Notes: generated by a model from the letters alone, not told the origin. 64,000 nucleotides of DNA from an uncultured Halobacteriovorax sp. (GCA_913061265.1 CAJXVS010000002.1:124001-188000); one strand, 5' to 3'. Positions 19,045-29,637 are shown, counted from the first letter of the stretch. Translations and numbers: made by a program.

Positions 19045-20667
19045 ATGAAAAAGATCATTTTTTTATTAGGTGTTTTAGGGTTTTTAGTCAGTTGTGAAGG
19101 TGAAAAAGGAGGTAAGAAAAGAAGGATTTACTATCCGCAAAATGAACAAGAATTAGAGCACGAAGTTGATAAGCTCAAAATAAGAAATATAAGGATTGCC
19201 TCTCTAAAGGCCGAAAAACTAGAGGTGAATTTAAAGAATGAAGGAATCTTAGATTCAAGAAAACTCAATATTGGAAGAAACAGATATCTTAGAGAAAAGA
19301 TCCTCGGACAGGCCTTTGAAAATATCTATAATCAAAAAGAAAAACAAGGCCTCTTAATTGATGCTTCTGATGAAAGAAAATTCTTTCCAAACGAATTGAG
19401 TTTCGAAACAAAACTTATAACCAGTGAGGCAATTCAAGCTTCGGAGAGTAAGAGTGGAAGCTGGTCTTTTAATATTAAAATGAGCTGGAGAGGATTACTT
19501 AAAGATGATTCCTTAAGTGATATCTTAATCTCTTTAGGCTCTGTAGATAAAAAGACTAAGGTTGTCGGCCAATATGGAACTGACTTAATAAAGAAAGAAA
19601 ATGGTCTCACCTATTCTTTTGATAATAAATCAGGGATGAAAAAATTCAACCTGAAGTTTGAAGATGTTCCCTTGAGTTTGATGAATAGTATTGTTGAGCC
19701 AAATACGAAGATCTTCTTTGAAATCAAAGACTTTAAAATGAACAAGAAAGGAATGAAGGAGTTTTACCAAGATCAAGCAGCGGAGATGACAAGGTTAATT
19801 ATTTCTCTGCCTTATGGGGAGAAGCTCTATTGGTTGAATAAAGGAGAGAAGCTAGAGGATTTCTTAACAGAGCTAGATCCGTCCTTTGAATTAAATTATG
19901 ATCATAGTCTCCTCTCTCTCTTTGGACATCTTCAAGATGAAGTGTTCTCTTATCCAGATAGAAACATCTTAAATGATGAAAGTATTGATGATGGACTTAA
20001 CTTTTGGTGGAGTAATAAAGAAGGGGATTTTAATAAGATAAAAGCTGATGGAAGCACTATTGTTCTAACTTATTTTAGCCTCAAGGAAATAAAAAAGAAT
20101 CAAGAAGTATGGTTACCCCTTCGTTTTGATTTTAAAGAATCAATTCCTCTAAAAGTAAAAGACAGGAAAGGGATTATAGGGAAAGTTAAAAAATACTCCG
20201 TGGAGTATCGTTTTCAAGACTCAGAAAAACAAATCCCTTTTGAAATTGGAAAAAAAGTTTGTATGGAAGATAATCGATTTGAAAGAAAGGGAGGAGATTG
20301 CACCATTCATTGGAACCCTGCCTTTTCATATCCCGTGGCTCATTTTCGAAGGCAAATTGTTGATGAGAAAAAGGAGAGAGAGATCTTTCAAAAAGAAATC
20401 TTAATTAAAAAGAATGATCGAGAAAAAGAAGCAAATGCTGGCTGGCTCGAAGTAAAACACCTTACTAACGAAACTCTAGAGGTTAAGAAAGAATCATTGA
20501 ACGCCATTGGTGGAGGCTTTGTAGGGTGGAAAAGCTATGATTCAAGACTGAACGGTTATCAAGTGCGAGCGCCTCATGACAACTTGGCATCATATGAAAT
20601 TCTAAATGGCTTTGAGAATGAATATGAATTTAAAGGCTGGAAACTGATGTTTCCAGCAAAGCACTAA
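19045..20667 (+). CDS. Large lipoprotein, unknown function
   Basis: The 540-aa protein has a lipoprotein signal ending at LVSC (MKKIIFLLGVLGFLVSC) followed by a basic GGKKRR stretch. The rest is lysine- and glutamate-rich with many predicted strands (IQASESKSGSWSFNIKMSW, then EVWLPLRFDF, then KAPHD-like loops near the end). No known domain is apparent. The start is well fixed by GGAGGTAAGT directly before the ATG, one of the best ribosome sites in the window, so high expression is likely. The stop overlaps the convergent gene by 4 nt. Confidence 0.65.
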   Translation: MKKIIFLLGVLGFLVSCEGEKGGKKRRIYYPQNEQELEHEVDKLKIRNIRIASLKAEKLEVNLKNEGILDSRKLNIGRNRYLREKILGQAFENIYNQKEKQGLLIDASDERKFFPNELSFETKLITSEAIQASESKSGSWSFNIKMSWRGLLKDDSLSDILISLGSVDKKTKVVGQYGTDLIKKENGLTYSFDNKSGMKKFNLKFEDVPLSLMNSIVEPNTKIFFEIKDFKMNKKGMKEFYQDQAAEMTRLIISLPYGEKLYWLNKGEKLEDFLTELDPSFELNYDHSLLSLFGHLQDEVFSYPDRNILNDESIDDGLNFWWSNKEGDFNKIKADGSTIVLTYFSLKEIKKNQEVWLPLRFDFKESIPLKVKDRKGIIGKVKKYSVEYRFQDSEKQIPFEIGKKVCMEDNRFERKGGDCTIHWNPAFSYPVAHFRRQIVDEKKEREIFQKEILIKKNDREKEANAGWLEVKHLTNETLEVKKESLNAIGGGFVGWKSYDSRLNGYQVRAPHDNLASYEILNGFENEYEFKGWKLMFPAKH

Positions 20668-21428
20668 ACCCAGTTTTCTTGAAGGCCGTCTACAAGAGTC
20701 TTTAGGATCGTTTTTTGAAGCCTAGTTAATCCATAAACATTGGCCATGATGATGACTGGGCTTTTCTTAATAGAACAAAGGGCTACAAGCTGTCCTTTTT
20801 CTTTATTGAACTCAACCACTTCAAAAACAGGGCTGAAGATATTTTCATAATTCTTCATTAGGTTTGCTTCAAGCTCTCCGCCTTCTTCAGGGTTTGCTTT
20901 TAGCTTTCCATGGACCTTAACTCGTATAAGCTTGTTTTTCTCGCCTTCCTTCTTTGCTTTCTTAACATCGTTATAAACAATAGTAAGTTCGCTTGTACCA
21001 AGATTTCTCTTTAAAAGGTTCCAAAGTTCTTCAAAGAAAGCCGTTCTCTCATTGGCCCAAAGAGAGTTGAGGTGTTTATAAACATTAGTCATCTCTTCAA
21101 GTAGACTTAGGTTATTTTGTAGAATCCATGACTCATATACTTTCTTAAAATAAGGAGTCGCTGATTCAGTTGAGAGGGCCTCAAAGCTATCTAAGTCGAG
21201 TCCAAACTCTTCAGAAGTTCTAATGGGATTAACTTCAGTAGTAGAGTTAAGAGTTCCAAGAAACTCTGTATCTTGAAGTAGTTCTTCTGGAAGGAAGAGT
21301 CCTTGAAGATTTAGCTTCGGCAGTTCATCAATATCCATAATTTTGCCTTTAGATTGAGTTTGGTTTTCACCAAAATCCTTAAGGACGATTTGTTGTGAAT
21401 TCTTGATGTAAGCCAGCTGAAAATTCAT
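20664..21428 (-). CDS. Hypothetical protein, 254 aa
   Basis: I do not recognise this protein. It is probably cytoplasmic: no signal peptide, an N-terminal disordered stretch (ENQTQSKGKIMDIDELPK) and then helical and strand segments (NRTSEEFGLDLDSF-like region, WANERTAFFEELWNLLKRNL, PVIIMANVYGLTRLQKTIL). The end is mostly alpha-beta. The start ATG 21428 has only a weak ribosome site (GAGGCAC); an internal ATG (MDIDELP) is an alternative. Confidence 0.55.
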   Translation of the reverse strand: MNFQLAYIKNSQQIVLKDFGENQTQSKGKIMDIDELPKLNLQGLFLPEELLQDTEFLGTLNSTTEVNPIRTSEEFGLDLDSFEALSTESATPYFKKVYESWILQNNLSLLEEMTNVYKHLNSLWANERTAFFEELWNLLKRNLGTSELTIVYNDVKKAKKEGEKNKLIRVKVHGKLKANPEEGGELEANLMKNYENIFSPVFEVVEFNKEKGQLVALCSIKKSPVIIMANVYGLTRLQKTILKTLVDGLQENWV

Positions 21429-21517
21429 AGAGAGTGCCTCTTGTCTAAGTGTCTGTGTGAATTAGTATCCTATAACAAGCTGTCCCAATTTGAAAGAAAT
21501 GCGCGGAGGCTAAGTTC

Positions 21518-22186
21518 TTGAAGTATAATAAATCTATGGAAAAGAAGACCGTCAGAACGCTTGGCGTTATATTCTTGTTACAGTTTGGGCTCTTCGCTGA
21601 GGCCCAAGATGAAAGGTTTACCAGGGAGCTTCTCTCTGGGGACTTGACTCGTATCGTAGCCCCTCAATCAGAAAATAAATATAACTACAAAGTAAGAAGT
21701 CCTTATTACGAGATCGACTTAAATAATGATCATAAGAATGAATCTTTTGTTGTTGAGAAAAAAGACGGTGAAGATTGGGTCTATGTTTATAACTATAATA
21801 AAGAAAAGATCTATAGCTTTAAGCTTGAAACGACTGGGGCGCATAGCCGTCTTTATCGCATAACGAGTAAGAACTTATCCAGGGACTCTAAGGTTTATGT
21901 CCTTCACTTCTTTGAAGGAGTGACTCAATTCTTAAAATTTAAATCTCAAGCTAGGTTTTACTTCTTAACAATCGATAAAAATAACCTAAGCACGATCTCT
22001 ACTTATAAGGGGCCGGCTTTTTGGGAAGAGTTTAAGAGCTTTAAGCATAACCATTACCATCAAAGAAAGTATGAACTAACGGCAGTTGATCTAAATCGTG
22101 ATGGGGTAAAAGAGTTAACCCTTAGCTATAACGATACGCGAAGGGTTTATTTCTATAGAGGAAATGGCTCTTGGCAAAGCTTCTAG
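21518..22186 (+). CDS. Secreted protein with FG-GAP/VCBS-like repeats
   Basis: The 222-aa product has a signal peptide (TLGVIFLLQFGLFAEAQ). Two segments, DLNNDHKNESFVV near residue 68 and DLNRDGVKELTLSY near residue 190, have the Asp-rich DxNxDGxxE pattern of FG-GAP or VCBS repeats that bind calcium in beta-propellers. Only two repeats are seen, too few for a closed propeller. The start is TTG 21518 because GGAGG lies 8 nt upstream; the ATG at 21536 lacks such a site. Confidence 0.6.
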   Translation: MKYNKSMEKKTVRTLGVIFLLQFGLFAEAQDERFTRELLSGDLTRIVAPQSENKYNYKVRSPYYEIDLNNDHKNESFVVEKKDGEDWVYVYNYNKEKIYSFKLETTGAHSRLYRITSKNLSRDSKVYVLHFFEGVTQFLKFKSQARFYFLTIDKNNLSTISTYKGPAFWEEFKSFKHNHYHQRKYELTAVDLNRDGVKELTLSYNDTRRVYFYRGNGSWQSF

Positions 22187-22633
22187 TTAAGAAGCTTTTG
22201 GAATATTGAAATCATCATCGTCATTATCATCATCTTTCTTCTTTGATTTTGGAAAGGCTAATGTATTGTCTTCGATTTCTTCATCTTCTTGAAAACCAAT
22301 TTCACTCTCAGGCTCATCCAATTCTCCATTCATGAAAAACCAAATTCCAAAAGGGAGTATTAATAATAAAACTAAGATAAAGGCTGGCTTTAAGCTTGGC
22401 TCGGTCGTCTCCGAGATTGATCGGCTTGGTAACTTAGAAGTATCTCCTTTTGGAGCGACGGCCTCAGTTGTTATTTTAGATTCATCTTTGTTCCAATTAA
22501 AACCTTTAGCCTGGCTTGGCGGGACTTCTTTGTACTCATCGATACTGATTCCCGTAACTGGTTCTACAGCAGGCTTTCTTGCAAAAGCGCTAAAGGGAAG
22601 GAGCAAAATAAGAAGAATCGTAAGTTTATTCAT
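22187..22633 (-). CDS. Exported single-pass membrane protein with acidic tail, unknown
   Basis: The 148-aa precursor has a signal peptide (LTILLILLLPFSAFA), a charged periplasmic stretch, a central membrane segment (AFILVLLLILPFGIWFFM) and an acidic tail with a DDDNDDDDF run. The topology suggests a small inner-membrane protein. I find no family. It is convergent with the VCBS-like gene (the two are adjacent with no gap) and divergent from the acyl-activation operon. Confidence 0.55.
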   Translation of the reverse strand: MNKLTILLILLLPFSAFARKPAVEPVTGISIDEYKEVPPSQAKGFNWNKDESKITTEAVAPKGDTSKLPSRSISETTEPSLKPAFILVLLLILPFGIWFFMNGELDEPESEIGFQEDEEIEDNTLAFPKSKKKDDDNDDDDFNIPKAS

Positions 22634-22704: not shown

Positions 22705-22799
22705 TCTTTTCGCCTGTATTCTTTTCAAAAAGAGGAGGCTTTTAGCCTTTTTATGATACATCGCATAAGCAATGATAACCAGTGGGTAAAAGAGGAATT

Positions 22800-23957
22800 A
22801 TGGGACTGATAATAGATAGGGCCAATATTGACGATATCAATGAGTTAATCGGTCTATACCTGACTATTTATGGAAAGGATTATCCCCTCGAAGTTGGAAC
22901 CAACAAGGATGTGATGAAAAAGCATATCCTTGATAAGGACCAAACTCTCTGGCTTCTCATGAGAGATACAGACACTTCAACTATTGCTGCCTCATGTATC
23001 TTTGAACTTGATCTTGAATATAAGATTGGGAAAATTACGGGAATGACAGTGAATCGCTCTTATAGAGGGCGAGGGCTTGCTAAGCAATTATTAGGTGCAG
23101 GGATTGATGAAGTTCTACATGTTGGTAAGAAGGTTCATTCTCTCTACGCTACAAGTAGGACTATAGAAGTTAGTTCACAGAAAATGCTAATCGCAAATGG
23201 ACTAAAACCTTTAGGGATTTTTCCTAACGCCAGAAAAATAAAGCACTACGAAACCTTAACTTTGATGGGAATCTTTGGAGAAGGTGTTCTTGAAAGAAGA
23301 AGTAAAGTTGAAAGAGTTCCACCTCAGATGATTCCACTTTATAATTCTATTGGTGAAGTTTTAGGAAGCGAAGGGCATCCTGCTGTAGGACATGCCTGTC
23401 CTGTCCTAAAGAGTGATAGCTCCTTAGAAATTAATGAAGAGGACTTTGAATATATCGACGCTCCTATGTTTGTTAAGAAGAGGTTTGAAGAAACCTTTAG
23501 GGGAGACAAAGAATCTATCTTTTATCCTTTTCATAAACCCAATCTCATTATCTCTTCGGAGAAATGTGACCTTGAAATTTTCGCTTCTTTTAGTAAAAAG
23601 GATCATTACTGTGTTTTGATTACAGCAAACAACTCTATTCGCGATTTAGAAGATCAGTTTAAACAGTTGATCTTCTCTATGAAGGAAAAGGGTATCTATT
23701 ATATCGAAACTTTAATGAGAGCCGATTACTACGAAGTGATTTGTTTTTTATTACAAAATAAGTTCCTTCCATCAGCTTTGTATCCTGCCATGAGAGAAGA
23801 GGATGGGGTTATGCATGACTATGTTCTTCTTACGAGAACGATGGTGCCCCTAGATTTTAGTGAAACTCATATAGATGATTGTTTCCTTCCTTTTGTGAAT
23901 CAATATGTAGAGCAATGGGTTGAAATGAACCTAAAGAGTCTTGGAGTAAATAAATGA
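22800..23957 (+). CDS. Two-domain GNAT-family N-acetyltransferase
   Basis: The first 150 residues form a GNAT domain with the acetyl-CoA-binding motif (GMTVNRSYRGRGLAKQLL) and YATSRTIEVSSQKMLIANGL. The remaining roughly 235 residues show no recognised motif and may be a second, degenerate acyltransferase-like domain. The enzyme should transfer an acyl group from acyl-CoA to an amine. GTG 22782 is possible, but AGAGGA just before ATG 22800 favours the latter. It overlaps the LuxE-like gene by 4 nt (ATGA) and is the first gene of the operon, so it probably acts on the substrate or product of the activation and reduction enzymes. Confidence 0.72.
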   Translation: MGLIIDRANIDDINELIGLYLTIYGKDYPLEVGTNKDVMKKHILDKDQTLWLLMRDTDTSTIAASCIFELDLEYKIGKITGMTVNRSYRGRGLAKQLLGAGIDEVLHVGKKVHSLYATSRTIEVSSQKMLIANGLKPLGIFPNARKIKHYETLTLMGIFGEGVLERRSKVERVPPQMIPLYNSIGEVLGSEGHPAVGHACPVLKSDSSLEINEEDFEYIDAPMFVKKRFEETFRGDKESIFYPFHKPNLIISSEKCDLEIFASFSKKDHYCVLITANNSIRDLEDQFKQLIFSMKEKGIYYIETLMRADYYEVICFLLQNKFLPSALYPAMREEDGVMHDYVLLTRTMVPLDFSETHIDDCFLPFVNQYVEQWVEMNLKSLGVNK

Positions 23958-25111
23958 ATTTGAAAGCTCCTGGAGAAGGAAAATTGAGTTCTGTTGAAGA
24001 GCTATGTTTATTAAAGAATCCTTATATTCCTTTTAAAGATAATAATGATCTTTTCATGAAGGCGATGAGAGAAAATATTTCTTGGCATAGAGAAAACTCT
24101 TCCTACTACGAAGCTCTTTGCCTTGAGAGTGATTTTGATGAGAATAGCTTTGCCGATATAAGTGAGATTCCCTATATCTTAGCCAATTTCTTTAAGCGGC
24201 ATGAGATAAAGTCAGTTAAAGACGAAGATATAGATGTTCATCTAACTTCATCAGGTACCTCTGGGCAAAAATCACAGATGTTCTTTGATTCTTGGACTAT
24301 TAGGTCGGCACAGCAAATGGTTGCCAATATCTTTGATTATTATGATTGGCGCTCAAAAGATAAAGTTAACTATCTTCTTTTTACATATGAACCTGAAGAA
24401 GGTTCGAAGTTAGGAACTGCTTATACGGATAATTTCCTCTGTGAGTTTGCTCCTATCAACTCAGTTCACTACGCCTTAAGATATACAAAAGGTGGACATA
24501 AATTTGATGTCTTTGGTTGTATAGAAGCGCTTAAGAGGTTTGAAGAAGAAGGTCTTCCTGTGAGGATTTTTGGCTTTCCTGCCTTTATGAACTTTACCTT
24601 GGAGCAGATGAAAGAATTAGGTGTAGGGCCTTTAAAGCTACATCCTGATTCGATGACTTTCTTTGGAGGTGGCTGGAAAGGTCACCAAGAAAAAGCAATT
24701 GAGAAGTCCGTCTTTTATAAGAACTTAGAAGAAGGTCTTGGAATTCCTGGAAAAAATTTGAGAGATGGATTTGGGAGTGTTGAGCATTGTGTTCCTTATG
24801 TAGAATGTGAGAATCATGAGTTTCATATTCCTACTTATTCTAGAATTATCATTCGCGATGTAAAAACCTTAAAACCTATGGACTATGGAGAGACTGGTTA
24901 TCTTAACTTTATTAGTCCCTACATAACTTCTGTTCCTGCCAATAGTGTCTTGATGGGAGATTTAGCTAGCTTACATGAAGCAAAAGAATGTTCATGTGGG
25001 TTAGAGACACCTTTCTTTAAGATTATCGGAAGAGCGGGTTTATCAAAGAATAAAAGTTGTGCCATCGCAGCCTCAGAGATCTTGAAAGAGTTTTCAGGAG
25101 GTCAGTCATGA
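23954..25111 (+). CDS. LuxE-like acyl-protein synthetase
   Basis: The 385-aa protein matches LuxE, the acyl-AMP-forming synthetase of the fatty acid reductase complex. It has the adenylation loop LTSSGTSGQKSQM near residue 98 and FGFPAFMNFTLEQM. Toward the C-terminus comes GRAGLSKNKSCAIAA, where Cys369 lies at the position of the acyl-accepting cysteine of Photobacterium LuxE. LuxE activates a carboxylic acid with ATP and holds it as a thioester before passing it to LuxC. It is coupled to both neighbours by ATGA overlaps. No luxAB luciferase genes are present, so the product is probably not luminescence substrate. Confidence 0.85.
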   Translation: MNLKAPGEGKLSSVEELCLLKNPYIPFKDNNDLFMKAMRENISWHRENSSYYEALCLESDFDENSFADISEIPYILANFFKRHEIKSVKDEDIDVHLTSSGTSGQKSQMFFDSWTIRSAQQMVANIFDYYDWRSKDKVNYLLFTYEPEEGSKLGTAYTDNFLCEFAPINSVHYALRYTKGGHKFDVFGCIEALKRFEEEGLPVRIFGFPAFMNFTLEQMKELGVGPLKLHPDSMTFFGGGWKGHQEKAIEKSVFYKNLEEGLGIPGKNLRDGFGSVEHCVPYVECENHEFHIPTYSRIIIRDVKTLKPMDYGETGYLNFISPYITSVPANSVLMGDLASLHEAKECSCGLETPFFKIIGRAGLSKNKSCAIAASEILKEFSGGQS

Positions 25112-27591
25112 AACATTTCTTTAAAGGAAAGTGGATCGATTCTAATAATACCTCACAGATCCTAAACTCAATTGAAGCCGAAGTGATCGACTCATTAGGT
25201 GTTGATCTTAAACTGCAAGAAGTTTTAGATGCTTGTGATCTTTTTTCAAAGAGACTCATAAGCGATATTAGCTTTAGACAAAACCTCTTAGGAGAACTTA
25301 GTGATGTTAGCCTCTTAGATGAAATAGCAGCTTTTTGCGATAAAAGGTTCTTACTTAAAAAAATCAGTAAAGAGCTCGGTGGTGTTGATAGCTTAGAGCT
25401 TAAGAAGCAAAGCTATACTGATTCTGCTTTTGAGGCCTTTTCTCCTATCGGAACTCTTGTTCATATAACGCCTTCAAACTCAGAGGGACTAAGTTTTTTA
25501 GCCGTGGTTGAAGGTCTCCTAAGTTTAAATAATAACTTGGTAAAGATAAGTTCTAGAGACAATAACTTTACGGCTCTGGCCCTAGAGGCTCTTATCTCTT
25601 GTGACCCGACTGGTAAGATCTCTAAGAAGATTGGAATACTACGAATCTCAAGTAAGGAAAAAGAAAACCTAATAAAGCTCCTTAGCGTTGCTGATGGGGT
25701 CTCTGTTTGGGGCGGGGAAGCTGCTGTAAGAGAAGTACAAAGTATTGCGCCTTTAGGCGCCCGCTTTATTCCTTGGGGTCATAAGATCTCTTTTTCGTAT
25801 ATTGATAAAGAAAACTTAGAAAACCCGGATGCTTTAGAGAAGATGGCCTTTGAGGTTGTTTGTAATGATCAACAGGCCTGTAGCTCACCTCAAGTTCTTT
25901 ACTTAGAAACAGGCTCTTTTGAACTATGCAAAGAATTCAGCAAGAGACTTTTTGAAGTCTTAAAATCTGAAAGTGATAAAAAAGAAATAGCTGTTCTTGA
26001 TATTCAACAGCAAGCTGAGATTACCAATCAAGTTGAACTCGCAAAACTCGAAATTCCTATGGAACTCTCAGCCGTTTATGAAGACAAAGATAAGAGTTTT
26101 AGGATCATTGTCGAAAAGAACCCTGGCTTACGACCATCACCTTTGTTTAGAACTCTTATTGTAAAGCCATTACCGAGAACTGATATTATTAAAACGCTTT
26201 ATCCTTGGCGGCATTACCTACAAACAGTTGGACTTTATTCAGATAGATCAAATGCAGCCGAGTTATCAAAGATCTTTATCGCAGGGGGCACAGTTAGAGT
26301 TACTAAGCTTGGTGAGATGTTAAATTCTTATGAAGGTGAACCTCATGATGGAGTCTATGCTTTAACCCGATTTATGAAGCGAGTAAGGGCCGAAGTTAAG
26401 GGAGCTGAGGATATCTATCGTCTAAGTGACTTTGAAGAAAAACCTATTCATAAATTTTCTGGAACGATAATCGGTAAGAGTGATTTTCAAAAATTAGCAA
26501 AAGAGAATATTGATAAAGCAGAGCTCTTCTTTCGATCAGGTGGCTCTTCAGGAAAGACCGCCTTAAGTTTATTTAGTTACGATGATTATCATGATCAAAT
26601 GAAGAATGCCTCCGAGGGGCTTTTTGCAGCGGGACTTGAGCCGAGTACTGATAGAGTAATAAACCTCTTCTTTGGAGGAGGGCTCTATGGAGGCTTTACT
26701 AGTTTTTTTACGATCTTAGAGAACTTGAAAGCGGTTCAATTTCCTATGGCAGCCTATGAAAACTTAGAGATGGTCGGTGATATGATCATCGAAGGTCATG
26801 TAAACACTCTACTTGGGATGCCCAGTTATTTGATCCAGCTTATTAAGGCGAACCTTGATCGATTTAAAGAGTATGGAAAGATAGAAAAAATATTCTATGG
26901 CGGAGAGCATTTCTCTGAAAAGCAAAGAACTTGGCTTAAGAAAGAGCTAGGAATAAAGATCATTCGTTCTGCTGCCTACGGCTCTGTTGATGCGGGCCCA
27001 CTAGGCTTTCAGTGTCCCCATTGTGAAGGATCAGTTCATCATCTTTTAGATAGTAATCAAAGCTTAGAGATCTTAAAGATCGAATCAGATTCTCCTTGTG
27101 AGGTTGGCGAAGTGGGCCGGTTAGTTTTTACAAGTAAGAATAGAGAAGTCATGGAGATCAAGCGTTATGATCTAGGAGATCTCGGAGCTTGGGTTCCCGG
27201 GAATTGTCCTTGTGATAGGAAGACACCTCGATTTGAGTTAAAGGGAAGAGCGGGAGATATCTTTAGAGCCGGAGGAACTTTTTTGAACTTTCAAAATTTT
27301 GACCTTTGCCTAAAGAGTAAGTTTGATTACTCAGGTGAGTTACAGGTTTTGATTGATCAGAAAGAAGGCCTCGATCATGTCTTGCTTCTTATCGATACGG
27401 AGTTCACTTCCTTTACGGAAGGTGAACTAACAAAGGTTATATTAGATCAGTACTACGAGCTGCAAGAAGTCGCGGTGAAAGAAAAAGGTCTTTACTTTGA
27501 AGTAAACTTTATAAAAGGAGATTCTTTTAAAAGAACAAAAGGTTCGGGGAAACTTATTCGTGTTTTAGATAAAAGGGATGAGTCGTGTTGA
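25108..27591 (+). CDS. Fusion of LuxC-like acyl-CoA reductase and PaaK-like adenylation domain
   Basis: The protein is 827 aa from ATG 25108 (AGGAGG upstream, ATGA overlap with the LuxE gene). Residues 1 to about 440 are a LuxC-type acyl-CoA reductase: FSPIGTLVHITPSN, VWGGEAAVREV and the catalytic Cys258 in NDQQACSSPQ. From about residue 450 a second module begins with FFRSGGSSGKTALS (phosphate loop), then YGGEHF, AYGSVDAGPLGFQC and RYDLGDLGAW, as in phenylacetate-CoA ligase-type adenylating enzymes. The reductase would turn an enzyme-bound or CoA acyl group into an aldehyde. Joining it to an activating domain in one chain is unusual. Confidence 0.82.
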   Translation: MKHFFKGKWIDSNNTSQILNSIEAEVIDSLGVDLKLQEVLDACDLFSKRLISDISFRQNLLGELSDVSLLDEIAAFCDKRFLLKKISKELGGVDSLELKKQSYTDSAFEAFSPIGTLVHITPSNSEGLSFLAVVEGLLSLNNNLVKISSRDNNFTALALEALISCDPTGKISKKIGILRISSKEKENLIKLLSVADGVSVWGGEAAVREVQSIAPLGARFIPWGHKISFSYIDKENLENPDALEKMAFEVVCNDQQACSSPQVLYLETGSFELCKEFSKRLFEVLKSESDKKEIAVLDIQQQAEITNQVELAKLEIPMELSAVYEDKDKSFRIIVEKNPGLRPSPLFRTLIVKPLPRTDIIKTLYPWRHYLQTVGLYSDRSNAAELSKIFIAGGTVRVTKLGEMLNSYEGEPHDGVYALTRFMKRVRAEVKGAEDIYRLSDFEEKPIHKFSGTIIGKSDFQKLAKENIDKAELFFRSGGSSGKTALSLFSYDDYHDQMKNASEGLFAAGLEPSTDRVINLFFGGGLYGGFTSFFTILENLKAVQFPMAAYENLEMVGDMIIEGHVNTLLGMPSYLIQLIKANLDRFKEYGKIEKIFYGGEHFSEKQRTWLKKELGIKIIRSAAYGSVDAGPLGFQCPHCEGSVHHLLDSNQSLEILKIESDSPCEVGEVGRLVFTSKNREVMEIKRYDLGDLGAWVPGNCPCDRKTPRFELKGRAGDIFRAGGTFLNFQNFDLCLKSKFDYSGELQVLIDQKEGLDHVLLLIDTEFTSFTEGELTKVILDQYYELQEVAVKEKGLYFEVNFIKGDSFKRTKGSGKLIRVLDKRDESC

Positions 27592-28808
27592 TTAGTGAAA
27601 TTGAGCTTATCCTATTAGCGAGTTCTCAGTCCCCTTATTATAAAGAGCTCTATTCAAAGTTATCTAAAGACGATTTAACTTTAGAGAAACTTCCTGTTGT
27701 AAATCAAGAAGACTTTTGGAAATTCAATGACTTTAAAGATAATAAGCTTTTAACAGGACCCATTGAAGATGGGGTTGTCTTTAAAAGTGGTGGTACAACT
27801 GGGAAACCAAAGTTTTCCGTTTATACAAAAGAGGAGTGGCAGCTTTTTACCACGCTCTTCGGTGAAGGGATGGATAAACGTTGTTTGAAAGAAGGGGATA
27901 GAGTTGGGAATCTTTTTTATTCAGGAGACCTCTACGCTTCCTTTTTATTCATCACTAAATCACTTGAAAATGCGAAAACGAAGATCACTCAGTTTCCTAT
28001 GACTGGTGGAATGAAATTAGAAGATATGATTAAGACCGTCGAGGAATATGGAATCAATGTTCTCGCGGGAGTTCCCACTAGCTTTATTGCTATGGCCGAT
28101 CTTTTGATTAAAAAAGGAAAGACCTTGGGTCTTGACCGAGTTCTTTACGGAGGGGAATCACTTTTTCCTGAACAAGAGAAAATACTTAAGACAGTCTTTC
28201 CGAAGGCTGAGTTTATGTCGGTAGGCTATGCCAGTGTTGATGGTGGACATTTAGGATATATAGACGAGGACTGTGGACCTTCTGAGCATAATGTTTTTCC
28301 TGGAACCATCATGGAGATCCTTGATGACTATGATAAGCCGATTACTAAGATGGGAGAGGTTGGGAAGTTAACTTTTACCAATCTTTGCAGAACTCTTATG
28401 CCTATCATTAGATACCCCGTTGGAGATATGGGTTGTTGGGTATCTACAGGTAAATTTAAGCTACTCGGCCGCTCTGACGAAGGAGCGAGAATAGGTCCAG
28501 TGACTGTTAGTCGTGATGATCTTGTAGAAGTCTTTAGGTCCTTTAACCTTTTTGAGAAGATTTCTAATTTTCAAATGCTCATCTTAAACTCTGAGGGTAA
28601 GGATAAGCTGATCGTTCATTATACGTCAGGCTCTGAGTTATCTAATCTTAGAGAAAATTTCTACCAAGAAAGACCTATGTATCTTGAGGCCGTTAATAAA
28701 AATCATATTAGAGATGTCGATTTTATAAAAGTCGAAGAGTCTGAGCTTATTCATAATGAAAGAACGGGAAAGTTAAAACTTGTTATTGATCAACGGATTC
28801 AAGGATAA
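27585..28808 (+). CDS. PaaK-like AMP-binding enzyme, paralogue of the preceding C-terminal domain
   Basis: The 407-aa protein has VVFKSGGTTGKPKFS (phosphate loop), VLYGGESLFPEQE, GYASVDGGHLGY and RYPVGDMGCWV. These are the same landmarks in the same order as in the C-terminal half of the upstream fusion (for example YGGE, Y-x-SVD-x-G-x-LG). The two are therefore likely tandem duplicates. It would activate a carboxylic acid as an adenylate and perhaps a CoA thioester. The GTG start overlaps the upstream gene by 7 nt. The 3' end overlaps the convergent amidotransferase by 26 nt. Its substrate is unknown. Confidence 0.8.
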   Translation: MLISEIELILLASSQSPYYKELYSKLSKDDLTLEKLPVVNQEDFWKFNDFKDNKLLTGPIEDGVVFKSGGTTGKPKFSVYTKEEWQLFTTLFGEGMDKRCLKEGDRVGNLFYSGDLYASFLFITKSLENAKTKITQFPMTGGMKLEDMIKTVEEYGINVLAGVPTSFIAMADLLIKKGKTLGLDRVLYGGESLFPEQEKILKTVFPKAEFMSVGYASVDGGHLGYIDEDCGPSEHNVFPGTIMEILDDYDKPITKMGEVGKLTFTNLCRTLMPIIRYPVGDMGCWVSTGKFKLLGRSDEGARIGPVTVSRDDLVEVFRSFNLFEKISNFQMLILNSEGKDKLIVHYTSGSELSNLRENFYQERPMYLEAVNKNHIRDVDFIKVEESELIHNERTGKLKLVIDQRIQG

Positions 28809-29637
28809 TCTTCATATCACTATCAATTGCAATGATCTCTCCTACTTTCATAGGGAGCCAAATATTCTCACCAGACAATGGTTCACTAGAGAAAATAAGA
28901 TGATTGATATAGCCATCAACTGATGGGTTTTCACAAGCGTCTGTAAAAGACGGACAATTATCACGGTCTCCACACTTCGTTTTATAAGTGGAGTAAAATA
29001 AATTCTTTCCGCCTTGATGGGCGACCATGGTTTCACCATTAGTAAGAAGAAAGGTTAAATACGTCTCAGTCTCGCCATTGTCATCAATTCTTGAAAAAGG
29101 ACCAATTATTTCGACAAGGGATTTGATAGCTTCTTTACTGGCCTTAATGACTTTGCTGGCTTCGCAGTTCTTTTGAGAAATATCCATTTCCTTCATTAAA
29201 TAACTTAAGATGTAAAAAAAGATGATCTCACTATCGGTTTCTCCGAGGATGAACCTTTTTAATTCAGGGTTTATCCTGGCGGTTATCTTAGATTTAACTT
29301 TATCAAAATCTTTGATATTTCCATTATGAGCAAAGACCCATTGACCAAATTGAAAAGGATGGGTGTTAAGAAGGGTATTATCGCCCTGAGTTGAGTTTCT
29401 TAAATGGGCTAAGACCGTTTGGCTTGAAACAACACCAGAGACTTTCTTAAAGAGATTACTTTTAATGGCGGCTGATTCAGAAGACTTGATAATATGAGGG
29501 GTGCCTTGGACGTAGTAGCCAACTCCCCAACCATCAGGATGCTTGTTGCTTTGAAAGGCCAAGGCATTATCAGCACTAACTAAACTGCTATGAACCTGGC
29601 TAAGAATGACGGATCTAAATCCAAAGAGACGACACAT
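28783..29637 (-). CDS. Class II glutamine amidotransferase (YafJ-like)
   Basis: The protein begins Met-Cys (MCRLFGFRS), with Cys2 as the expected N-terminal nucleophile. It continues with HPDGWGVGYY, LAHLRNSTQGDN and WVFAHNGN, all typical of the class II (Ntn) glutaminase fold, and later GETDSEIIFF. At 284 aa it contains the glutaminase domain only, as in YafJ, so an acceptor partner, if any, is a separate protein. It stands alone, with a 26-nt convergent overlap with the acyl-activation operon. Confidence 0.85.
   Translation of the reverse strand: MCRLFGFRSVILSQVHSSLVSADNALAFQSNKHPDGWGVGYYVQGTPHIIKSSESAAIKSNLFKKVSGVVSSQTVLAHLRNSTQGDNTLLNTHPFQFGQWVFAHNGNIKDFDKVKSKITARINPELKRFILGETDSEIIFFYILSYLMKEMDISQKNCEASKVIKASKEAIKSLVEIIGPFSRIDDNGETETYLTFLLTNGETMVAHQGGKNLFYSTYKTKCGDRDNCPSFTDACENPSVDGYINHLIFSSEPLSGENIWLPMKVGEIIAIDSDMKIILESVDQ

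Follow-up and report, generated by a model that had tools for sequence, protein, structure and literature searches.

A four-gene GNAT, LuxE, LuxC-PaaK and PaaK operon of Halobacteriovorax and its relatives in other phyla: a probable small-molecule pathway

The 64,000-nucleotide stretch of DNA from an uncultured Halobacteriovorax sp. that is analysed here (GCA_913061265.1 CAJXVS010000002.1:124001-188000, referred to as the window) carries at 22800-28808 an operon of four plus-strand genes, encoding a GNAT protein, a LuxE-type synthetase, a fusion of a LuxC reductase with a PaaK-type adenylation domain (LuxC-PaaK) and a free-standing PaaK-type enzyme (PaaK). This operon probably specifies a single compact pathway for the biosynthesis of a small molecule, in which carboxylic acids are activated, one of them is reduced to an aldehyde, the GNAT protein carries out an acylation and the product is often exported. 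Most likely the pathway has been moved horizontally. The gene content and order, the protein families, the invariant catalytic residues, the linkage across phyla, the co-occurrence of the genes and the association with an exporter are directly supported by the data described below.

Gene content and conserved residues of the operon

Neighbouring genes of the operon overlap by 4, 4 and 7 nucleotides (Table 1), and the open reading frame coordinates thus bear out the initial annotation, which had described four genes on the same strand with overlaps of 4 to 7 nucleotides. Its identification of the products as a GNAT protein, a LuxE-like protein, a fusion of LuxC with an adenylation domain and a second adenylation enzyme is likewise backed by Pfam and structure matches. 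The likely start of the GNAT gene is the ATG at 22800, with AAGAGG in front of it; an in-frame GTG is also present at 22782. Promoter and terminator scans around the operon gave no usable signal.

The LuxE protein matches PF04443 with 132.1 bits (cut-off 24.9) and the LuxE chain of the LuxC-LuxE complex (7xc6_E) at 4.1e-22, the C-terminal cysteine of this chain being aligned with Cys369, which is a cysteine in 100/100 distinct full-length relatives. The LuxC domain of the fusion protein (residues 46-425; residue numbers of the fusion count from 25105) scores 277.9 bits against PF05893 (cut-off 21). Its DQQAC-type active site aligns with that of 7xc6_A, and Cys259 is conserved as cysteine in 102/102 distinct full-length relatives; as regards cofactor binding, invariant glycines are present in the LuxC family alignment. 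The fused adenylation domain has a Pfam AMP-binding score of 20.3, under the cut-off of 29.9, and matches the PaaK structure 4r1l at 8.5e-21 by sequence and at 1.4e-58 when the family profile is used. Its conserved cysteines are C637, C701 and C703, and Lys816 is a lysine in 102/102 distinct full-length relatives. The free-standing PaaK enzyme scores 37.2 bits against PF00501 (AMP-binding, cut-off 29.9) and matches 4r1l at 2.7e-13, with Lys396 being a lysine in 104/104 distinct full-length relatives. A comparison of active-site residues had been proposed in the initial annotation, and the acyl-accepting cysteines of LuxC and LuxE as well as the adenylation lysines are invariant in the 100-104 sequences compared for each protein.

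The AlphaFold2 model of the fusion protein has a mean pLDDT of 83.7 and a pTM of 0.47. Together with the low-confidence linker, these values predict a protein of two folded domains, and the model does not fix how they are placed relative to each other. A LuxC-bearing frame of about 740-925 amino acids, in other words with PaaK attached, recurs across Bdellovibrionota (nearly all strong PF05893 matches), and one lineage (locus L059, also found as L145) has LuxC and PaaK as two adjacent, overlapping genes. The recurring long frame, together with the existence of this split version, rules out a frame artefact behind the fusion, and since the split lineage keeps both genes adjacent, LuxC and PaaK belong together as parts. 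BdhE (9ldl) was considered as a precedent for the fusion and rejected, as the Foldseek match has only 12% identity and BdhE belongs to the aldehyde dehydrogenase-alcohol dehydrogenase (ALDH-ADH) fusion class, going by the portion of PMC12454647 that concerns it.

The GNAT protein matches Acetyltransf_1 (PF00583) with 29.7 bits (cut-off 20.7), and its AlphaFold2 model has a mean pLDDT of 91.8. The first domain matches GNAT structures with Z scores up to 15 (Foldseek, VIA). The second half of the model, which the structural search barely covered, is read as a GNAT-like domain from the repeated order of strands and helices; the RGRG acyl-CoA loop of the first domain is absent from it. Residues Glu304, Arg168 and Asp341 are invariant across distinct full-length relatives.

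Table 1. Positions of the operon genes, their domains and key residues in the window, and of one flanking gene.
Feature	Position	Strand	Basis
Tandem GNAT-fold acyltransferase gene, 385 aa	22800..23957	+	Pfam, AlphaFold2 model, Foldseek/VIA matches
Acyl-CoA loop RGRG, first GNAT domain	about 23064-23075	+	motif check
LuxE-type acyl-protein synthetase gene, 385 aa	23954..25111	+	PF04443, 7xc6 LuxE-chain match
LuxE acyl-accepting Cys369 codon	25058-25060	+	alignment with 7xc6_E
Gene for the fusion of LuxC acyl reductase and PaaK-type adenylation domain, 827 aa	25108..27591	+	Pfam, structure matches
LuxC reductase domain (PF05893)	25240..26379	+	Pfam residues 46-425; 7xc6_A match
LuxC active-site Cys259 codon	25879-25881	+	7xc6_A alignment
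Low-confidence linker between LuxC and PaaK domains, residues 432-449	26398..26451	+	pLDDT <50
Fused PaaK-type adenylation domain	26512..27576	+	matches to 4r1l, 2y4o
Fused-domain adenylation Lys816 codon	27550-27552	+	residue count in relatives
Free-standing PaaK-type adenylate-forming enzyme gene, 407 aa, GTG start	27585..28808	+	PF00501, 4r1l match
Free PaaK Lys396 codon	28770-28772	+	residue count in relatives
Class II glutamine amidotransferase gene	28783-29637	-	convergent with the operon, overlaps its end by 26 nt

Linkage of the genes, distribution and mobility

The 3.97 Mb genome has one copy each of LuxC and LuxE. When 291 Bdellovibrionota genomes are searched with PF05893 and with GNAT and LuxE protein profiles, LuxC is found in 81 genomes, which have LuxE in 81/81 and GNAT in 78/81 cases, and GNAT occurs without LuxC in only 7 of the 291. 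The nominal Fisher p value for this co-occurrence is <1e-57, a value inflated by the kinship among the genomes. Two members of the same genus have the operon without GNAT and encode a strong GNAT homologue (424-430 bits) elsewhere; no further pathway gene is found among the neighbours of this relocated GNAT gene in either of them. The conservation of the gene set within the phylum and beyond it rules out chance or a local artefact.

With a single window protein as query, no match was obtained in the contigs of the genome collection; an alignment-based query succeeded. This search used one peptide pattern and, as the best 80 of 124 confirmed loci are considered, its counts are a lower bound. 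Among these best 80 loci, 35 belong to Bdellovibrionota, 19 to Actinomycetota, 10 to Pseudomonadota, 3 to Thermodesulfobacteriota and 2 to Campylobacterota; the rest are single loci of other phyla and 6 loci without a phylum assignment. The gene-order set consists, after removal of duplicates, of 102 distinct loci, and components were counted in the fetched stretch only; all four are present in 78/102. The commonest order is GNAT>LuxE>LuxC-PaaK>PaaK, as in the window. Other loci have a major facilitator superfamily (MFS) gene in front, a divergent PaaK gene (several actinomycetes) or no last PaaK, and the proteobacterial order is LuxE>LuxC-PaaK>PaaK>HATPase-GNAT. The initial annotation had suggested a search for the same gene order in Bdellovibrionota and elsewhere; the set is indeed found together in many genomes and the conservation within this phylum stands, the scope having been too narrow with respect to the other phyla, the other gene orders, the plasmids and the frequent MFS exporter.

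Plasmid copies are found in Streptomyces sp. NBC_00158, Streptantibioticus cattleyicolor, Streptomyces sp. BHT-5-2 and two conjugative Salmonella plasmids. On the plasmid of Streptomyces sp. NBC_00158, the genes for PaaK, MFS, GNAT, LuxE and LuxC-PaaK are closely packed in a single operon. The two conjugative Salmonella plasmids are of the IncF type (L153, 8464-14627, and L154) and have LuxE, LuxC-PaaK and PaaK near recombinase genes, a shorter GNAT being annotated in one of them only; DNA resembling this version is present in no E. coli genome of the collection. A LuxC-domain tree, calculated by a quick method with SH-aLRT support only, separates the fused LuxC proteins from the standalone LuxC proteins of Azospirillum, Pantoea and Priestia (SH-aLRT 100), and two further standalone plasmid LuxC proteins fall within the fused clade on long branches, where their placement is unsure. 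Phyla are intermixed in this tree, which fits horizontal transfer.

An MFS transporter gene (PF07690) is present in 29/102 distinct loci (about 28%), adjoining the GNAT, LuxC-PaaK, LuxE or PaaK gene. A HATPase-GNAT protein is encoded in 20/102 distinct loci, and the tested proteins of Sulfurimonas and Desulfogranum have HATPase_c_2 fused to GNAT. Genes for a STAS and a HATPase protein and for a SpoIIE-type phosphatase are also found next to the operon in the Sulfurimonas, Desulfobulbus and Desulfogranum loci, and a SpoIIE-type phosphatase is near the operon in Lysobacterales and Azonexus as well. In two loci (L116, 8673-13896, and L141, 10679-14784), STAS, HATPase and SpoIIE-type phosphatase genes come after the HATPase-GNAT fusion, apparently as a partner-switching module tied to the pathway. 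None of these regulators is seen beside the operon of the window. SpoIIE-type phosphatase genes are common in the Streptantibioticus/Streptomyces group, and the occurrence of one near three operons of this group was discounted as strong evidence, the three being close relatives.

Related LuxE and LuxC systems and flanking genes

LuxE and LuxC are the textbook enzymes of luminescence, which in luminous bacteria reduce fatty acids to aldehydes: the acid is activated with ATP and held as a thioester on LuxE, passed on as a thioester to LuxC, and reduced there with NAD(P)H to the aldehyde. Their non-luminescent relatives are little studied. No match to the luciferase family PF00296 (luxAB) is found in the genome, which is 99.75% complete, whereas controls were matched; a role in luminescence is rejected on this ground, and the result agrees with the absence of luxAB stated in the initial annotation. 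The luxD family PF02273 has no match in the genome either, but the control genomes are also without a match. When compared with the LuxC-LuxE reductase of Photobacterium phosphoreum (7xc6), the partners are homologous, the LuxC and LuxE parts aligning with chains A and E, respectively, both acyl-accepting cysteines are retained and the genes are adjacent. Unlike in the luminous bacteria, LuxC carries a fused adenylation domain, an extra adenylating enzyme and a tandem GNAT protein are present, no luciferase is found, and the sequences are far under the equivalog cut-offs. The preserved fold and active sites, and the reduction of fatty acids by LuxE and LuxC of luminous bacteria, speak for a role in lipid synthesis, in which fatty aldehydes would be made for wax esters, fatty alcohols or lipids derived from aldehydes, with GNAT as a later acyltransferase. 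This is nevertheless improbable, as it leaves the two PaaK-type units, the exporter and the scattered, plasmid-borne distribution unexplained, and the proteins are distant from the long-chain-specific equivalogs.

Flagellin glycosylation islands of Aeromonas (PMC7874193) and of Enterobacteriaceae (PMC4875605) contain, in the parts of these reports that deal with them, LuxE and LuxC together with an acyl carrier protein (ACP), a ketoacyl-ACP reductase and an AMP-dependent synthetase. These islands resemble the operon in being non-luminescent and in having LuxE, LuxC and an AMP-dependent synthetase; they differ in having their own ACP, ketoacyl-ACP reductase and glycosyltransferases, and the same parts of the two reports describe no LuxC-PaaK fusion or tandem GNAT (PMC7874193, PMC4875605). 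It is conceivable, by analogy with what is proposed for the LuxE and LuxC of such islands, that a cell-surface polymer or protein is modified, activated and reduced acids supplying the acyl or aldehyde unit that decorates a glycan; sugars are also GNAT targets. We consider this unlikely: neither ACP nor glycosyltransferases were noticed as recurrent neighbours in the inspected clusters and translations, for which no dedicated profile search was made, and the operon travels alone, on plasmids and across phyla, often tied to an MFS exporter.

Plasmid gene pairs of Azospirillum, Pantoea and Priestia (L157-L159) also have LuxC beside an acid-activating enzyme (a long-chain ligase), whereas their LuxC is unfused, belongs to a separate branch and has an ABC transporter and/or a short-chain oxidoreductase as neighbours. 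L157 and L159, from an alphaproteobacterium (Azospirillum) and a Bacillus relative (Priestia), share a nearly identical six-gene set of an acid ligase, standalone LuxC, ABC transporter ATPase, permease, binding protein and 3-oxoacyl-ACP reductase. A LuxE-LuxC pair on a Streptomyces europaeiscabiei plasmid (L156, NZ_CP109155.1, 1-7344) lies directly 3' of DUF692, MBL-fold and divergent YcaO-like genes; this looks like a cluster of the ribosomally synthesized and post-translationally modified peptide (RiPP) type, in which LuxE and LuxC might reduce a carboxylate. On a Chloroflexota plasmid (L155, CP069395.1, 6880-13087), another pair lies close to a heliorhodopsin gene, a few genes away. A report with both luxC and paaK was rejected as a precedent, because luxC serves only as a reporter there (PMC11481866). 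The open-licence literature searched gave no description of the gene set, the LuxC-PaaK fusion or the linked distribution; descriptions elsewhere are possible. All of the enzyme families are known, and as far as this literature shows their combination, the fusion and the wide linked distribution are new.

Upstream of the operon, at 20664-22633, are three small genes (254, 222 and 148 amino acids), the first and last without a Pfam match; their order is kept in many family members, whatever the operon variant. The product of the convergent amidotransferase gene (Table 1) is EgtC-like, with 81.5 bits far under the cut-off of 218.65.

Proposed pathway and its significance

The established LuxE-LuxC reaction and the intact residues suggest the reductive activation of one acid. 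LuxE would adenylate a carboxylic acid with ATP and hold it as a thioester on Cys369, from which the acyl group would pass to Cys259 of LuxC; its reduction there with NAD(P)H would give an aldehyde, in the manner of the fatty acid reductase known from luminous bacteria. One further acid, or two, would be activated by the pair of PaaK-type units to give CoA thioesters or acyl adenylates, and the tandem GNAT protein would move such an acyl group onto an amine or a similar nucleophile of the intermediate. The neighbouring MFS transporter would export the product in many relatives, and its recurrence suggests a secreted small molecule. We infer that all enzymes act on one route, and the same holds for the direction and product of the individual steps, for the substrates and for the role, as a signal or as a defence or predation metabolite. 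The non-luminescent carboxylate-activating pathway put forward in the initial annotation is well supported by the linkage and the invariant residues, and neither of the two checks named there, on the reductase residues and on the joint conservation of the genes, speaks against it; the aldehyde or amide product and the role of GNAT are still a matter of interpretation.

An aromatic acid is a plausible substrate given the PaaK kinship, as PaaK-type relatives of known structure include the aromatic acid activators 2y4n/2y4o (phenylacetyl adenylate), 9s45 (aminohydroxybenzoate) and 6tm4 (salicylate). PaaK1/PaaK2, BT_0428, NatL2, AjiA1 and ClxA have the fold, the adenylation lysine and the sequence profile in common with both PaaK units, and are not fused to a reductase, going by chain length and PDB titles, unlike one of the units here. 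In the phenylacetate pathway, PaaK-type ligases have a degradative role, and the matches of both the fused and the free domain to PaaK structures could point to a catabolic or detoxifying module for environmental aromatic or fatty acids or aldehydes, acting by such CoA ligation. The chances of this are slim: the two units score 62 and 50 bits against the phenylacetate-CoA ligase equivalog TIGR02155 (cut-off 646), no degradation gene set was noticed as a recurrent neighbour, three adenylating centres with a reductase and GNAT would be costly for catabolism, and the exporter association favours secretion. Catabolism, surface polymer modification and lipid aldehyde synthesis are each less likely than the small-molecule pathway.

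Four observations weigh against the biosynthetic pathway as proposed. The scores of LuxC (72.8 bits, cut-off 750) and LuxE (105 bits, cut-off 550) against the luminescence equivalogs NF052251 and NF052244, respectively, are far under the cut-offs, so that the substrate and even the reaction may differ. The last PaaK is not nearby in 12 of the 102 distinct loci, and this step is therefore not universal. The acyl-CoA loop of GNAT (R/Q-x-x-G-x-G/A) is canonical in the window and in 47/80 distinct relatives and altered in the other 33, for which reason the donor may not be an acyl-CoA, or the role of GNAT may be non-catalytic; as judged from its sequence, the GNAT protein is conserved, yet its acyl donor is uncertain. 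Finally, no MFS transporter is encoded beside the operon of the window, whose exporter would be located elsewhere or would not be needed.

A further-reaching version of the small-molecule pathway is put forward tentatively. The operon may represent a new class of mobile specialised-metabolite or signal pathway, in which an acyl-thioester reductase and a tandem GNAT protein would work with three adenylation centres (LuxE, fused PaaK and free PaaK) to form an exported acyl product derived from an aldehyde, without any carrier protein, and which in some proteobacteria would be wired to partner switching of the RsbU/V/W type via HATPase-GNAT. The operon is a self-contained cassette that has probably spread horizontally among relatives of predatory bacteria, actinomycetes, sulfur-cycle bacteria and conjugative plasmids. 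It comprises only four or five genes, so it can be cloned whole and tested, which may bring a new family of secreted metabolites to light.

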